38,218 nt of DNA from Flavobacteriia bacterium (lineage in GTDB: Bacteria; Bacteroidota; Bacteroidia; Flavobacteriales_D; Crocinitomicaceae). Below are positions 17,063-23,003 of the stretch, one piece after another. The notes under the pieces were generated by a model that did not search any database, was not told the origin of the DNA, and was given only the letters and a program-made list of their open reading frames with translations. Made by a program: the position numbers and the translations under genes. The stretch is from NCBI GenBank assembly GCA_016178305.1, contig JACOTM010000061.1:1-38218 (forward strand), written 5' to 3'. Every line of letters starts with the position of its first letter. Position 1 is the first letter of the stretch.

Positions 17063-17470
17063 TTATTGAGCTGTCACATTCAATGCTACTTGATTTGTTA
17101 ATCCATCTCTATTTGTTATTGTAAAAACATATTTAACAACTTGTCCAGCAGTTGCATCTATAGTCGTAGTCAAATCATAAGCATAACTATCTTCTTCGCT
17201 TTTTGAAATATCTTTATTAAAAATTGAAATAGCAGCTCCTCCATCTATTGATTTAGAAATATTAAACTTTTTTAATACATCTCTTTTTTCTGATTTAGAA
17301 GAATTAATTCCAATTAAAATAGAACTTCCTACCGTTTTTACAACATCTGAACTTAAATAAGTTCCTCCTGTTTTAAAACTAATATTTGGTAAATTTCCTT
17401 CATCTTTTTCACAAGAAGAAATAAAAAAAATACTCATCGATACAATAATCATTTTTGCTAAATTTTTCAT
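17063..17470 (-). CDS. Small lipoprotein, probably surface-exposed, in TonB-receptor operon
   Basis: This 135-residue protein has a lipoprotein signal with Cys20 in ISSC. The residues after Cys20 are EKDEGN. K-D-E at positions +3 to +5 matches the lipoprotein export signal (a Lys followed by two acidic residues) reported for surface lipoproteins of Bacteroidota, so display on the cell surface is likely. The rest forms one small beta-sandwich-like domain (FKTGGTYLSSDVVKTVGSSILIGINSSKS...YVFTITNRDGLTNQVALNVTAQ). No family is recognised, and it has no HmuY-like signature that I can see. Its gene begins 38 bases after the second TonB receptor gene and ends the operon, so a role in ligand capture for those receptors is plausible. 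Confidence 0.75.
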   Translation of the reverse strand: MKNLAKMIIVSMSIFFISSCEKDEGNLPNISFKTGGTYLSSDVVKTVGSSILIGINSSKSEKRDVLKKFNISKSIDGGAAISIFNKDISKSEEDSYAYDLTTTIDATAGQVVKYVFTITNRDGLTNQVALNVTAQ

Positions 17471-17508
17471 AATTTGAATTTATTTTGATTGTTTATTAAT
17501 TTACTAGT

Positions 17509-19545
17509 TTATTTAATTACTGATTTAAGTGGTGTTTCGTTTATTTTAATTTTTATGCTTAGTGTAACATTTCTTCCAATATTATATAAATTATAATTTT
17601 TAAATCTGGAAAGATGATCATAATAGTGAACATTTAATAAATTATTACCTGATAATGTAAGCAAATAAGTTAATTTTTCATTCACTATATTTTTTGAAAT
17701 TGAAGTATTCAACAGCCAATATTCAGGTGTCTTTTTTTCATAAAGAGCACAAAAATTTTGCTTAAAATAATAATCAATATTGATATTAAATTGAACTGGA
17801 TTCAATGTTTTTTTACCAATTAAACAGTTAAAATTAGAAGCTATTTTCTGCGAAGGAATATAAGGTGTGTAATTACCATCATTTGTTTTACTTAACATTC
17901 CTGAATATGCGACCATACTTGAAATGTATTTTGAAAATAATATATTCAATATTATTTCAGATCCATATTGCGTTGCATTTTGTTGTTTATACCTATAAAC
18001 AGGAAAGCCAAACCAATTTTCATCCGTTGGACTTAAATAAACATAATTGTTAAAATAGTTATAAAATGGGCTTAACGTAAAATGTATATACTTTAATTTA
18101 AAATTAACAAATACATTTCCAGCAATAATTTGTTCATTTTTTAAATTTGGGTTTCCTATTTCATAAGTAAATATCCCTTCATGTAAGCCATTTGATGCTA
18201 ATTCTGCTAAATTAGGAACTCTAATGCCTGTAGAAAAATTTGCCTTTATATTAAATCTTAAACTTGGGAAATAAGTAAATCCTGTAAATACATTATAAAA
18301 AGGTGATTTTTTTTCAAAAGGATGAATTAATTTATCACTTGTATTTACAGTTTTTGTTAAAAGTGTTTGTATAAATTTATAGCCTATCCCAAAGCCATTT
18401 TCAAATATTAATTTAGATTTCACAGTCGATTCAAGATATGCCGACATATTCGTTTCAAATAAATAAGCATCAGGCACAATCTTACGTGAACCATAATTTG
18501 TATTTTTTTCAATAGATCCTAAATTTGAAATTATAAGTTTGTTATATTCATTTAAAAAACGTTCCCATTTTAATAAATACTGAAAAGTAAATAAATGCAT
18601 ATTTAAACTAATTGCTCCACCTCCTTCATTTTCCATTCGAATGTTTGACTGAATACCTAAATTTATATTCAATAAAGAATTATTTTTTAATTCAATTTTA
18701 TTTTCTGAAGACACAATGTTTAATAAAACTAAATGACATGGATTTTGAGAAAGACTCCTACTCCATCTTTTATCTGGTTCAACAAAATCATAAATATCTT
18801 TAAAAATAAATCCGTATCGATTAAAAGTCCCCATATAATTATTCGTACTCGTCCAGTTTTTTTTATTCAACCCATAAGTTGATTTTATTTGGTATCCATC
18901 AAATCGACTGTTTAATACTCGAACATTATTTCCATCTGAGTAATCAGCATTATTTTCAATTCCAACACGAATTCGAAACCATTTCTTACCAAAATTTGCT
19001 TTGTATCCACCTTGAAAATTTCCTCCTAAAGTATTGGAATTTAATTTTACAGAATAATCAGATGTTTTTGAATTGAGTTTTGGTTTATCTTCCTCAATCA
19101 CATTTATCACCCCTCCTATTGCTTCTGTTCCATATAAAACACTCATCGGACCTTTAATTATTTCAACACGGGATAACCCTAAATCAGACAATCCTAAACC
19201 ATGCTCCTCTTGCCATTGTTGATTGTCAAATTTCAATCCTGAAATCAACATTAACACACGATTTCCATAAAGACCTCTAATCACAGGTTTAGCAATTGCT
19301 ACACCTGTTGAAAACATAGCAATCCCAGGTGTTTTTGACATTAAATCAGTTAAGTTATAATTCCCAAATCTAGATAAACTATCTATTTTTAATGATGTAA
19401 TATTTAAGGATGATTTTCTTAAAGATTTAACTTTAAAGGATGAAATTATCACAGAATCAATTTCTGTAACCTTATTCGTATCTAATATTTGAGAAAAGAA
19501 CATTCCCATCTTCATAATAAATAGATATTTTATTAAATCTTTCAT
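17509..19545 (-). CDS. TonB-dependent outer-membrane receptor (second of a pair)
   Basis: At 678 residues, this has an N-terminal hydrophobic segment, a TonB-box-like IDSVIISS (about 29-36) and a plug domain (about 45-155). The plug has IAKPVIRGLYGNRVLMLISG and VEIIKGPMSVLYGTEAIGGVINVIEE, and the C-terminal barrel ends in YNIGRNVTLSIKIK. Unlike its neighbour it has no carboxypeptidase-regulatory-like N-terminal domain. The plug segment QQWQEEHGLGLSDLGLSRVE is typical of siderophore/haem-type plugs, but the ligand cannot be assigned. It lies 45 bases after the 809-residue receptor gene and 38 bases before the lipoprotein gene, as part of one operon. The last residues (NETPLKSVIK) run past the usual terminal aromatic. 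Confidence 0.93.
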   Translation of the reverse strand: MKDLIKYLFIMKMGMFFSQILDTNKVTEIDSVIISSFKVKSLRKSSLNITSLKIDSLSRFGNYNLTDLMSKTPGIAMFSTGVAIAKPVIRGLYGNRVLMLISGLKFDNQQWQEEHGLGLSDLGLSRVEIIKGPMSVLYGTEAIGGVINVIEEDKPKLNSKTSDYSVKLNSNTLGGNFQGGYKANFGKKWFRIRVGIENNADYSDGNNVRVLNSRFDGYQIKSTYGLNKKNWTSTNNYMGTFNRYGFIFKDIYDFVEPDKRWSRSLSQNPCHLVLLNIVSSENKIELKNNSLLNINLGIQSNIRMENEGGGAISLNMHLFTFQYLLKWERFLNEYNKLIISNLGSIEKNTNYGSRKIVPDAYLFETNMSAYLESTVKSKLIFENGFGIGYKFIQTLLTKTVNTSDKLIHPFEKKSPFYNVFTGFTYFPSLRFNIKANFSTGIRVPNLAELASNGLHEGIFTYEIGNPNLKNEQIIAGNVFVNFKLKYIHFTLSPFYNYFNNYVYLSPTDENWFGFPVYRYKQQNATQYGSEIILNILFSKYISSMVAYSGMLSKTNDGNYTPYIPSQKIASNFNCLIGKKTLNPVQFNINIDYYFKQNFCALYEKKTPEYWLLNTSISKNIVNEKLTYLLTLSGNNLLNVHYYDHLSRFKNYNLYNIGRNVTLSIKIKINETPLKSVIK

Positions 19546-19590
19546 CCTTTAAAGTCAGATATGCTTACCAATTTCAGTTAAATATATTTC

Positions 19591-22020
19591 TTAAAAATTA
19601 CCTCTTAATGTAACTATAAAATTTCTACCTGGAGCTGAAATATTTGAAGCAAATTGTCTGTAATTTTGATCAAATATATTTTCACATGCTGCCTGTAAAC
19701 TAATATATTTGTTAAATTGATATGTCAACCTAATATTTGCAGTGTACCAAGCTGGCATTCCAAATGGAGTTGCATTTGATTCATTATCTTCCCCCATTAA
19801 ATTATAATCTTTCATTCTTTTCCACCCATTGTAGTTTACAAAAAACTCACCTCTGAATTTTTTCAATTTTACATTAAAACTTACCTTTCCAAAAATCGGT
19901 GCAATATGGTCTAACGGATAATCTGTTGTGTCTGTAACAATTCTTCCATAAGTATAATTAAATGATCCTAATACAGATAAATATTCATTTAAATTACCAG
20001 AAATAGAACTCTCTAAACCGTAAATATACGCCTTAGCTGCATTTGTTGTTGCAGTTACTTTACTCATAACTCCATCATAAATTATTGAATCTTGACCATT
20101 AAATGTAAAATTTTGTGTTGTCAAAGCATTCACATAATTTGTATAATATCCATTGAGAGAAACTAATATTTTTTTATGTAGTAATTGAGATATTCCTAAC
20201 TCATAAGTATAAGTATATTCTGGTTTTATATTTGGATTCGGGACGATGATATTTCCTTGAGTAGATTCAAAAACTTTACTCAAATCATCAACGTTTGGAG
20301 CTCTAAATCCAGAAGAAACTCCTGCTGTAAATCTAGACGTATTATTGGGCATATATACGATTCCTATATTTCCATTTACAGCATTATTTTTTTGAATTAC
20401 GTTCTCGAAGGGAAATGGAAAAAATGTTTTATTAATCCATTTAGAATTTAAATTTACATTCGAAAAACGAATTCCATCATTCAATATAATTTTTTTACTT
20501 ATTTCCCATGTATGCGTAAAATATCCAGCAATTGAATACATTGCAGAACCCCCATCTGAATATCTAGTACTAATTAATCCAACAGTATCCATTTTCAAAT
20601 TTTTCCCAAAAGCCGTTGAATTTACTTTGTTATAATACGCATCTATACCAAATCGAATTTCATTTTTACCTAATTTATTATCAAAATCTGCATTAAATGT
20701 TATAATATCCAATTTCTCAACATGATGATTTTCTATTGATTTTTTATATTTACGGTCAATCCTACTCTCTTCAATGTTTTGATATCCAACTATTATTCTT
20801 GCATGGTCATAAATTCGATTATTATTTGTTAAATTCAAGGTATATGACCCAAACATTCTCTTTTGAGGCCCATAATACCATGTTCCAAATTTAGGATTAT
20901 TTAAATTTGTTAACGGTTTTCCATCATTTGTTAATGTCAGTCTATCATATCGATCAATGTTTGATGAAGTTGAATATTGAAAATTTAATATATGGTTTAC
21001 TTTTTCAGATTGCTTAAATAATATTTTTTGTAAAAAATCAATTTGTGAATATGAAGAACCTATTTGTAAATTTGTATCATTATTTACAAAAAGAGAATCT
21101 ATACCATTTATTTGTTTAACATACCAATTTCTAGAGCCAAAATTCCCATAATATGGATTTCGAACGGCACCTTGTCTTAAATCTCCATAATTTGAATATG
21201 AAAACGAAGTCAATGAAGCTACTTTACTATTTCCAATTGAAATATCAGTGTGTGCTGCTGAACCAGAATTTGCAGTAGTATATCTCGTAAATGCCGAAGC
21301 TGCAATTTTTATTTTATTTGATTCTGATAATAATGGATTTTTAGTATAAAAATGCATAACTCCCCCCAAAGCATCACTTCCATAAACAACCGAACCGGGA
21401 CCAAATGCTACTTCTATTTTATCAAAAACAGAATTATCCAAAGTAATAATATTTTGTAAATGCCCTCCTCTATAAATTGCATTATTCATCCTTACACCAT
21501 CAACAACCATTAAAACTTTATTTGTTTCAAACCCTCGAATTATTGGACTTCCTCCACCTTGTTGACTTTTTTGAACTAAAACATTACCACTGTTAGACAT
21601 CACATCTGCAGTAGATGTTTGATTCATATTTTGTAAATCAGAGGTTCTTAATACTTGTATCCTTTGGACAACATCTCTTCTTTTTTCTTCAAATTTACTT
21701 GCAGATACTACAACTTCATCTAATGAATTAGTATTTTCTACTAAATAAATTACATAATTCACTTTAGCCAACTCTTCTTTCGTAAAAGAAATTTCATCGT
21801 ACATTTTTTTCTTAAAATAAAGTACCTCTGTATTTTTAAAGCTACTAATATCAATTTTACCATTGAGATCAGAAAGTAATGGGTTTGACTGATCAGAATT
21901 TTGAGATACTGAAACTCCATTTATCGGAACTAAAGTGTTTTTATCTAATATTTCAACTATTTGACTATAAATCGATGATATATTGACAATTAAGAATAAC
22001 AAAGTAATTTTTAATTTCAT
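19591..22020 (-). CDS. TonB-dependent receptor, haemoglobin/transferrin-receptor-like plug
   Basis: At 809 residues, this has a signal peptide (1-19), a carboxypeptidase-regulatory-like domain (about 20-100: IVEILDKNTLVPINGVSVS...LLSDLNGKIDI), a plug (about 105-225) and a barrel ending FIVTLRGNF, with the C-terminal aromatic needed for outer-membrane assembly. The plug has GGGSPIIRGFETNKVLMVVDGVR, MNNAIYRGGHLQN and VAFGPGSVVYGSDALGGVM. This resembles the haemoglobin/transferrin/lactoferrin receptor group (HemR/HmuR-like), making haem or haem-protein uptake the first guess. I did not identify the FRAP/NPNL pair as such; FRAPNVDDLSKVFE and VPNPNIKPE are present in the barrel and are the usual counterparts. 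It is first of a three-gene operon with the second receptor and the lipoprotein. Confidence 0.94.
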   Translation of the reverse strand: MKLKITLLFLIVNISSIYSQIVEILDKNTLVPINGVSVSQNSDQSNPLLSDLNGKIDISSFKNTEVLYFKKKMYDEISFTKEELAKVNYVIYLVENTNSLDEVVVSASKFEEKRRDVVQRIQVLRTSDLQNMNQTSTADVMSNSGNVLVQKSQQGGGSPIIRGFETNKVLMVVDGVRMNNAIYRGGHLQNIITLDNSVFDKIEVAFGPGSVVYGSDALGGVMHFYTKNPLLSESNKIKIAASAFTRYTTANSGSAAHTDISIGNSKVASLTSFSYSNYGDLRQGAVRNPYYGNFGSRNWYVKQINGIDSLFVNNDTNLQIGSSYSQIDFLQKILFKQSEKVNHILNFQYSTSSNIDRYDRLTLTNDGKPLTNLNNPKFGTWYYGPQKRMFGSYTLNLTNNNRIYDHARIIVGYQNIEESRIDRKYKKSIENHHVEKLDIITFNADFDNKLGKNEIRFGIDAYYNKVNSTAFGKNLKMDTVGLISTRYSDGGSAMYSIAGYFTHTWEISKKIILNDGIRFSNVNLNSKWINKTFFPFPFENVIQKNNAVNGNIGIVYMPNNTSRFTAGVSSGFRAPNVDDLSKVFESTQGNIIVPNPNIKPEYTYTYELGISQLLHKKILVSLNGYYTNYVNALTTQNFTFNGQDSIIYDGVMSKVTATTNAAKAYIYGLESSISGNLNEYLSVLGSFNYTYGRIVTDTTDYPLDHIAPIFGKVSFNVKLKKFRGEFFVNYNGWKRMKDYNLMGEDNESNATPFGMPAWYTANIRLTYQFNKYISLQAACENIFDQNYRQFASNISAPGRNFIVTLRGNF

Positions 22021-22435
22021 CTTAAATATTTTTTTTATAAATTTTTCTAATCTTGATATTTTTTTACCTCGGTTCGAATAAATAATGTTTTTTTACGGTT
22101 ACCTATTAAATAGAAAATGACTAATTAAAAGAAAATCAGTCGAAATGAAACAATGAAAAAATTTAATTCTTTCTTTACTATTTAACTCATTAATATTCGG
22201 AAACACATTCGCTTTTCCAAACCCAACTGTAGCTACAATTAATTATAAACAAAACATCATTTAACTGAGGATAAAAAAGATAATAGGGTTATTTTTATTT
22301 GATAATCCCTTGCTAAAATTATTAAAAATTGCCTTGAAATATAAATTGCTAAAATTATAAATCTGTTTATATACAATATAAACCATTTCAAACAGAATGT
22401 TCTATTTGATTTTTTTCAAGACAATAATATACAAT
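22021..22435. other. 415-bp intergenic region holding a decayed signal-peptide ORF
   Basis: This AT-rich gap lies between the PPQA-protein gene and the first TonB receptor gene and must hold the receptor operon's promoter. I find no good TAnnTTTG box and no clear Fur-like palindrome. It contains a plus-strand signal-peptide-like frame at 22145-22264 and a bulged hairpin near 22287-22315 (GGGTTAT/ATAATCCC) without a T-run on the plus strand. Confidence 0.6.
22145..22264 (+). pseudogene. Remnant of a small exported protein (frameshifted signal peptide)
   Basis: From the ATG at 22153 the frame stops after ten codons. If the six-A run after that ATG had one base fewer, it would read on to the TAA at 22262 for 36 codons: MKNLILSLLFNSLIFGN followed by TFAFPNPTVATINYKQNII. 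That is a near-ideal signal peptide (hydrophobic core, TFA cleavage site). In the same frame an ATG at 22145 exists but meets a TGA at 22154. The downstream part is short and may continue in another frame (HHLTEDKKDNRVIFI). It could be gene decay, an error in the A-run, or chance in AT-rich DNA. Confidence 0.3.
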
Positions 22436-22960
22436 TTAAGCTTGTGGTGGTTTTATAGGAATTTCTAATATCGTTTTATAAACTCTATCAAGATGGAAAA
22501 AATTATTTCCAATATTTTCTACTTTTGAAATTTGACTGAAATCAAATTGGTAATTAAAAATTGATGGCCTTGCTGATGAATTAATCAATTTACTCCAAAA
22601 TTTAGTAGGTAATTTAGACGATTTTCCTTGTGGATCTGGTTGATTTTTATCCATAAATGAATTTATCAAGTCAGTTTCATTTGTATCATTTAAACAAAAA
22701 ACGATAACTTGATTCTCTTTTTTTTGAATTTCTTTTACATCATATAAAGATTCATTATATGCAAATTCATTTTTATCAATCCAAAGTAATTTTTCATAAT
22801 CTTCTGAAGAAAAATTAAATTGAATAATTTTACTTTTATTTTTCAAATTAATATTTGCTTCTTTTTTTGCGATATATCTCATGTGCTCAAAATGAATGTT
22901 CATTCCGATAAACTGCCAGAAATAAATCCCAATAAATAATATTAAAATGTATTTTTTCAT
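22436..22960 (-). CDS. Unknown exported or anchored protein ending in PPQA
   Basis: The protein has 174 residues. Residues 1-19 (MKKYILILFIGIYFWQFIG) are a hydrophobic signal or anchor, so the rest lies in the periplasm or outside. I recognise no family. Visible pieces are NIHFEHMRYIAKKEANINLKNKS near the start, an acidic middle with many Lys, Asn and Glu, and the C-terminus DRVYKTILEIPIKPPQA. A terminal PPxA-type tail recurs, as I recall, in small Bacteroidota proteins encoded beside metal- or haem-related TonB receptors (for example the HYC_CC_PP group). This protein lacks that group's cysteines. Its gene is on the same strand as the receptor operon, 415 bases upstream. The start codon lies two bases after the T-run of the upstream gene's terminator. 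Confidence 0.7.
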   Translation of the reverse strand: MKKYILILFIGIYFWQFIGMNIHFEHMRYIAKKEANINLKNKSKIIQFNFSSEDYEKLLWIDKNEFAYNESLYDVKEIQKKENQVIVFCLNDTNETDLINSFMDKNQPDPQGKSSKLPTKFWSKLINSSARPSIFNYQFDFSQISKVENIGNNFFHLDRVYKTILEIPIKPPQA

Positions 22961-22962
22961 TT

Positions 22963-22994
22963 AAAAAAATGGCTCTCAATTTCATGAGAGCCAT
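22963..22994 (-). terminator. Intrinsic terminator after the 1595-residue adhesin gene
   Basis: On the minus strand, ATGGCTCTCA and TGAGAGCCAT pair perfectly (10 bp) around a six-base loop, followed by seven T. It starts 17 bases after the stop at 23012 and ends two bases before the next ATG. Confidence 0.9.
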
Positions 22995-22995
22995 C

Positions 22996-23003
22996 CAAAT
23001 TTA
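22996..23003 (-). promoter_or_regulatory. Possible -7 box (TAAATTTG) for the PPQA-protein gene
   Basis: On the minus strand TAAATTTG matches TAnnTTTG, and TTG at 23020-23022 lies 16 bases upstream, one base short of the usual range. Initiation near 22989 would fall inside the terminator hairpin of the upstream gene, so part of that hairpin would be in the new leader. Confidence 0.35.

Follow-up and report, generated by a model that had tools for sequence, protein, structure and literature searches.

A gene for a small, proline-ended protein was analysed in a stretch of 38,218 nucleotides (nt) of a Flavobacteriia bacterium (Crocinitomicaceae; assembly GCA_016178305.1, contig JACOTM010000061.1), referred to as the window. 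The protein of 174 amino acids (aa), designated PPQA, is encoded on the minus strand (22436-22960) by an open reading frame (ORF) without a Pfam or NCBIfam model. It probably acts in cis, as a nascent-chain regulatory leader of the stalling type for the receptor gene or genes that follow. Four properties of its family lead to this reading: a C-terminal proline-proline (PP) tail, a linker of fixed length in front of the tail, a position before several types of TonB receptor genes and matching stems in the mRNA. In the window, the order of transcription on the minus strand is the PPQA gene, a TonB receptor of 809 aa (TBDR1, 19591-22020), a second TonB receptor of 678 aa (TBDR2, 17509-19545) and a lipoprotein of 135 aa (17063-17470), separated by gaps of 415, 45 and 38 nt. 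All four ORFs placed at 17063-22960 by a preliminary description were recovered on the minus strand. That description had regarded the PPQA protein as a component of a ligand-capture system; tail, fixed linker, position and stems point to a cis-acting leader instead.

A profile of the PPQA family detected members in 67 of 345 genomes of the phylum, a lower bound because only the best candidates were scored. The window and 100 fetched stretches contained 88 members, of which 87 were complete (L069_01 was incomplete at the 3' end). Two adjacent prolines were present within the last 12 residues of all 87 complete members, in 65 as PPP, compared to 9 of 903 other complete ORFs of at least 100 aa. 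The C-terminal PP was the one feature common to every complete member, and all 13 members in 14 later-fetched stretches carried it. Seventeen complete members were recognised via residues up to 132 only and all 17 also ended in PP, thus the search had not selected for the prolines. A PP end as phylum-wide trait of small secreted proteins was rejected: in 40 spaced stretches of two genomes, none of 100 small ORFs whose N-terminus is hydrophobic had it, and 7 of 699 ORFs overall did. The alignment A3 comprised 84 of the 88 members; L069_01, L080_06, L054_10 and L184_08 were excluded as incomplete or shorter than 150 aa. The residue preceding the last two prolines was P in 63 of the aligned members and otherwise mostly K or H (xPPP or xKPP). 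Two to five residues followed the prolines in 73 members, with a full range of 0 to 10, and the residue directly after PP was K, R, E, Q, D or N in 74. Small PP-tailed ORFs were also observed outside the family (L077:3753-4190, L186:2012-2353 and L083:11422-11808); one had a CNGKC motif and ended in VPPPQVLYI, one ended in RAPPNLLT and one in SPPPKS.

No Pfam or NCBIfam family fitted the 84 aligned members beyond scattered matches at chance level, none of them matched DUF2946 at E 0.01, and a sequence search of solved structures with the family profile yielded nothing useful. A match to a Shr-like haem protein in one of the 84 members (E 0.0034) was treated as chance. HYC_CC_PP and DUF6660 are families with PP near the end; no paper was found under either name. 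Comparisons of the modelled domain by Foldseek and VIA-align remained unconvincing (the best E was 0.09, and Z did not exceed 5.2, reached on the long helix); the fold may still be a known one.

The family is closely linked to TonB receptors, which were identified with a profile built from TBDR1 and TBDR2. A receptor was the next gene for 71 of the 86 members with a neighbour, compared to 19 of 883 other ORFs, and the median gap to this receptor was 77 nt. Among the 15 members without a receptor next to them, three had one just upstream and one had it one gene further on, while several of the remaining 11 preceded genes of the PAP2/vanadium-haloperoxidase type (two loci by Pfam, the rest by ORF similarity). 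Five PPQA-receptor loci (L070, L077, L145, L163, L178) continue into a gene set of the iron/haem/B12 kind (binding protein, permease, ATPase); the binding protein of L070 matched IsdE best, those of L145 and L178 matched Peripla_BP_2, and those of L077 and L163 were assigned by reading.

AlphaFold2, supplied with 84 sequences, modelled the PPQA protein as a long N-terminal helix (residues 2-40; 22841-22960; block predicted local distance difference test, pLDDT, 89-97), a compact domain (residues 45-104; 22649-22828; pLDDT mostly >90) and a stretch of mostly low confidence, which comprises the unconserved linker (residues 105-170; 22451-22648). The Pro-Pro codons of the tail, the proposed stall site, follow at 22445-22450. 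From the model, the hydrophobic helix is inferred to be a signal anchor or signal peptide. Within the domain, E65 and D92 were conserved in 77 of 84 members each, Y73 in 75, D74 in 73, F66 in 71, E95 in 70 and W60 in 59. The distance from E95 to the prolines was 73.3 aa with a standard deviation (SD) of 3.0 and a range of 65-80 (n=84), and the mean pairwise identity of the linker was 0.108. The part before E65 varied with an SD of 13, partly due to start-codon choice. Intervals of similar length in the linked receptors served as yardstick and had a median SD of 4.2 at identities of 0.2-0.3 (8 intervals) and of 3.2 at 0.3-0.6 (17 intervals); the yardstick is imperfect, as no interval had an identity as low as that of the PPQA linker. 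Two of the 84 rows have no D or N at the D92 column, and the count anchored on this column used 82 rows; the spacing given here uses all 84.

The mRNA downstream of the proline codons was analysed for same-strand gene pairs within gap limits, giving 63, 71, 74, 68 and 84 loci in the different tests. In two of the tests the controls were random samples of gene pairs, 150 for the structure test and 90 of 259 for the arm-swap test. The loci share ancestry, thus the p-values are not independent. The region from the end of the PPQA gene to the next start was more structured than in controls (mean z -2.08, n=63, compared to -0.74, n=150; p 7e-8). When an 18-nt segment was slid along the leader, its pairing with the intergenic target was strongest from the first base after the last proline codon, with z -1.11 at this peak (n=71) and -0.05 in the 259 controls (p 2e-6). 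Thirty of 82 loci had a pairing z below -1.5 against 30 shuffles, and in 28 of these 30 the 3' arm ended between -25 and +5 of the next start, compared to about 32 of the 52 others. The two arms of a locus fitted each other: pairing energies averaged -8.14 kcal/mol for arms of the same locus and -5.30 kcal/mol for swapped arms (permutation z -11.5, n=74), and same-locus arms were among the best 5 % at 27 of 74 PPQA loci (3.7 expected), compared to 7 of 90 controls. Strong stems starting -3 to +9 nt from the PP codons were found at 22 of 68 loci and at 13 of 246 controls. When tail lengths were exchanged at random between loci (68 strong stems, 84 loci), the PP-anchored peak of stem starts averaged 17.4 instead of 24 (p=0.003), which ties the stem starts to the PP codons and not to the stop alone. 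This test is the fair version of an earlier comparison of stem start with tail length (68 loci), which was biased by its own selection window. Among the later-fetched loci, 11 were testable and had the same tendency (-8.15 versus -5.93, p=0.005).

These observations can be arranged into a mode of action. The PPQA protein would be exported during its synthesis via the N-terminal helix, as sequence and model suggest. The ribosome may then pause at the C-terminal Pro-Pro codons, some 73 residues past the folded domain, a distance at which the domain could just reach the periplasm. In a considerable share of the family, a ribosome paused there would cover the 5' arm of the stem that begins at the PP codons. 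The 3' arm of this statistically supported stem lies at the start of the next gene, so that pausing would open the start and receptor synthesis would rise. The duration of the pause could be set by the state of the periplasmic domain, be it ligand binding, folding or a pulling force. In the window, a single leader would head the series TBDR1-TBDR2-lipoprotein. A further-reaching version, in which nascent-chain sensors throughout the Bacteroidota combine a folded periplasmic domain lacking a Cys/His motif with a PPP stall site at a constant 73 residues, long enough to reach across ribosome and translocon, and switch TonB receptor synthesis by melting a stem that begins at the prolines, possibly in response to iron, haem or another non-thiol ligand, is proposed tentatively, with slightly less than even confidence.

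Several results weigh against the leader and its stem. Plain PPP can be relieved by elongation factor P (EF-P), and the two motifs for which stalling in the presence of EF-P has been shown, RAPP and RGPP, occurred in none of the 87 complete members. The proline motif of the copper sensor CutF alone did not stall in a LepB fusion (PMC9973294). A conserved Cys/His motif was absent from the family, with CxxC or CxxxC in one of 84 members. Only 22 of the 68 loci had a strong stem at PP, and equally strong pairing anywhere in the leader end was as common in controls (208 of 246) as at PPQA loci (56 of 68). Control gene pairs also exhibited an excess for matched arms (-6.87 versus -5.90, z -3.9, n=90). 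Eight of the 11 later loci had leaders at least 50 % identical to a member of the first set, and the remaining three alone gave -7.37 versus -6.92 (p=0.50), a comparison without power. In the lipoprotein set the excess was small (p=0.045) and, for the 10 loci not seen before, absent (p=0.26); here the leader precedes the lipoprotein and not the receptor in 8 of 13 cases. The stem signal therefore comes chiefly from the 74 loci of the first set and their positional tests.

The gap of 415 nt in the window fits the stem pattern of the family only partly, which has to be added to these counterpoints. A structure is predicted to start directly 3' of the PP codons (22307-22447), and the segment 22290-22447 folded with -33.7 kcal/mol (z -4.72; 0 of 200 shuffles as stable). 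This structure ends about 290 nt before the start of TBDR1, and the best pairing of the tail with the intergenic target was ordinary (z -0.8). Congeners have gaps of 159-212 nt; an alignment of the window gap with four of them was poor and revealed no shared element. At gathering threshold Rfam had no match in the window, thus no curated riboswitch explains the long gap. By analogy with CruR, Rho-dependent termination within the gap would be as likely in the window as masking of the start. On the plus strand of the gap (22150-22270), a short secreted ORF appears to have decayed, judged by eye from stops and a frameshift. Upstream of the leader, a terminator-like hairpin with T-run (22967-22996, minus strand) ends 2 bases before the PPQA start codon, thus transcription of the leader gene may come from upstream by read-through or start at a promoter inside the stretch. 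One such hairpin was found, with 1.6 expected in shuffles, and a promoter scan gave fewer sigma-70-like sites than shuffles (37 compared to 49.7).

Other explanations account for part of these data. The stems could be common attenuator or processing elements of receptor operons without any connection to the PP tail, as the matched excess in control pairs, the equally strong pairing elsewhere and the distance of the window's structure from the receptor start would allow. A T-run followed only 3 of the 30 strong stems, the tail-length shuffling ties the stem starts to the prolines rather than to the stop, and pairing peaks at the first base after PP; an origin as attenuators is quite improbable. 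The PP tail could instead be a short linear motif for a partner in the periplasm or inner membrane, and the finished protein could then act in trans, assisting the receptor or its assembly. The prolines of all complete members, the conserved folded domain and the predominance of K, R, E, Q, D or N after the prolines (74 of 84) would suit such a factor; neither the fixed spacing from domain to PP across an unconserved linker nor stems reaching from the PP codons to the next start are predicted by it, and between 0 and 10 residues follow the prolines. We regard a trans-acting factor as unlikely.

Likewise, a common role of PPQA protein and lipoprotein in haem or metal capture, as the preliminary description had it, is very unlikely. 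The surface-export-like lipoprotein accompanies a ZnuD-like receptor in 17 of 20 loci, the receptors resemble haem and zinc receptors, and the PPQA protein had a sub-threshold match to the NEAT haem domain (E 0.016). This match was dropped, with 16.1 bits below the cut-off of 32.8 and no match in any of the 84 members at E 0.01. Furthermore, the PPQA family precedes receptors of differing types and also PAP2/haloperoxidase-type genes. A stalling leader that senses the state of export or of the envelope by the pulling force at the translocon, and not a ligand, is less easily set aside. The family lacks a conserved Cys/His metal motif, the spacing would place the domain just outside ribosome and translocon, given their general geometry, and export is what the established arrest peptides SecM, VemP and MifM monitor (PMC9973294). 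The genes downstream, however, are mostly uptake receptors and not export factors, and particular residues of the domain (E65, D92, Y73) are retained, which would be in keeping with a binding site. An export monitor is therefore somewhat unlikely, and a stall-type leader of the receptor genes remains the preferred reading, whichever signal it may sense.

The same genome encodes a candidate for a leader of the canonical arrest type. On its contig 95, a protein of 102 aa containing His and Cys and ending in RGPP-SF (L089:8446-8754, minus strand) directly precedes a TonB receptor (L089:6032-8350, minus strand) that is 26 % identical to TBDR2. Genes of a ZnuA/ABC-3-type transporter lie a few kilobases away, and the leader possibly serves zinc or manganese. 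Directly after the RGPP codons, the mRNA can pair with a segment whose end lies about 13 nt ahead of the receptor start, and the locus folded over 113 nt with -24.4 kcal/mol (z -3.55; 2 of 200 shuffles as stable). An RGPP locus with such a stem speaks for leader control of receptors in this organism.

Plug and beta-barrel domains of TBDR1 and TBDR2 scored above the Pfam gathering threshold. TBDR1 was closest to haem receptors, with TonB-hemin TIGR01785 as best NCBIfam model (199.5 bits, below the cut-off of 316.85) and PhuR as best solved-structure match (2.3e-16), and is regarded as haem/haemoglobin-receptor-like. TBDR2 matched ZnuD best in NCBIfam (NF038289, 110.4 bits, below the cut-off of 950) and among solved structures (4rdr, 1.3e-18); both receptors are far below the curated cut-offs. 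The lipobox cysteine of the lipoprotein begins the sequence C-E-K-D-E-G, which agrees with the optimal surface-export signal C-X-K-(D/E)2-X of C. canimorsus (PMC5080379). Pfam had no match for the protein at E 1, and no NCBIfam family reached its cut-off. The protein was modelled as an eight-stranded, Ig-like beta-sandwich (pLDDT 88) similar to many others at Z around 10, e.g., the SoxYZ chain 2ox5_A (root mean square deviation 2.4, 95 aligned residues). The fold is a common one and indicates no particular function. A second type of the lipoprotein is encoded near lepA, with no TonB receptor nearby, in several congeners and in the genome of the window (L055, L056, L057, L061, L062, L063); lepA was identified by Pfam LepA_C in L063 and by reading in the other loci.

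The surroundings of these genes in other genomes revealed two modules. In a panel of 79 related genomes, the window's own included, the lipoprotein was matched in 14 and PPQA in 24. PPQA-type genes preceded receptors of the TBDR1 or the TBDR2 kind in the fetched surroundings, while the lipoprotein accompanied TBDR2. Twenty lipoprotein loci were obtained from GTDB genomes, all titled metagenome-assembled; four are contigs also fetched from the relatives. A TBDR2-like receptor adjoined the lipoprotein or was one gene off in 17 of them, two of the other three were at contig ends, and a PPQA member was present in 13. Both groupings exceed chance: the lipoprotein with its ZnuD-like receptor by these 17 of 20 loci, PPQA before a receptor by the counts of next genes given above (71 of 86 compared to 19 of 883). 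The lipoprotein is an Ig-like partner of TBDR2-type receptors. PPQA-TBDR1 and TBDR2-lipoprotein are usually apart, e.g., genome G009 (L064) has PPQA-TBDR1 without the second pair, while G003 (L051) has the arrangement TBDR1-TBDR2-lipoprotein; the window joins both modules at one site. The four genes thus do not form one conserved unit. The uptake locus of the preliminary description is supported as far as the haem-like and ZnuD-like receptors and the surface-type lipoprotein are concerned, by profiles, structures and co-occurrence; a part of the PPQA protein in it is not supported.

If the leader reading is correct, many receptor genes of Bacteroidota would, besides any repressors, be under the control of ribosomes that pause while translating a small sensor, and a function could be assigned to a protein family so far without annotation. 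It could then be tested whether PPP without a RAPP/RGPP core supports programmed arrest in Bacteroidota, and how a stalled ribosome controls initiation in these bacteria. The analysis points to individual receptor genes for such experiments, and the spacing of 73 residues provides a ruler that can be lengthened or shortened.

Small proline-ended leaders have been described from several bacteria, and among the open papers found on leader or polyproline control of TonB receptors, judged by title and opening of the abstract, none treated the PPQA family. CutF of Rhodobacter capsulatus is a co-translationally exported copper sensor whose proline-rich C-terminus, together with a stem-loop over the next start, controls CutO (PMC9973294). 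A screen for CutF-like proteins, with at most 150 aa and PP within 15 residues of the end, gave clusters with Cys/His motifs; many of the proteins were from Bacteroidota, and TonB-like genes were among the commonest neighbours (PMC9973294). PPQA shares with CutF the small size, a putative export, a C-terminal polyproline and a downstream gene on the same strand; pairing near the start of this gene is in excess across the family, whereas the structure in the window ends well before the TBDR1 start. The PPQA prolines are located as in the screen, in all 87 complete members within 12 residues of the end. The CutF-like set differs from PPQA, which is longer (174 aa), has a folded domain and shows no Cys/His motif conserved across members. 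In Bordetella pertussis, a TonB receptor operon begins with the gene for CruR, a DUF2946 protein with a RAPP motif on which expression depends. CruR acts through Rho, and a fixed spacing separates RAPP from the CXXC copper site (PMC9426467). The PPQA family has in common with CruR the position before a TonB receptor, PP a few residues from the C-terminus and a fixed spacing to PP, but it carries xPPP or xKPP instead of RAPP, no CXXC and no DUF2946 match. Fujiwara et al. reported small secretory proteins of Gram-negatives that carry RAPP or RGPP close to the end and are encoded upstream of TonB receptors, and stalling by these motifs in the presence of EF-P (PMC12992588). PPQA proteins resemble these peptides in the PP near the C-terminus and in the receptor downstream, though they have neither motif. 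By the criteria stated in these papers (RAPP/RGPP, or at most 150 aa), as distinct from their supplementary lists, the published screens would miss all but a few PPQA members, as 84 of the 87 complete ones have at least 150 aa. Upstream ORFs ending in proline before sec genes were found exclusively in Bacteroidota, and the candidate uA_LPPP stalled ribosomes of B. subtilis, but not of E. coli, in vivo (PMC10987492); it is a precedent for arrest of the PPP type, although it is located upstream of secA and not of a receptor gene. Length, missing Cys/His motif and missing RAPP keep the PPQA family from being filed with CutF and CruR; by its anatomy it appears to work like them.

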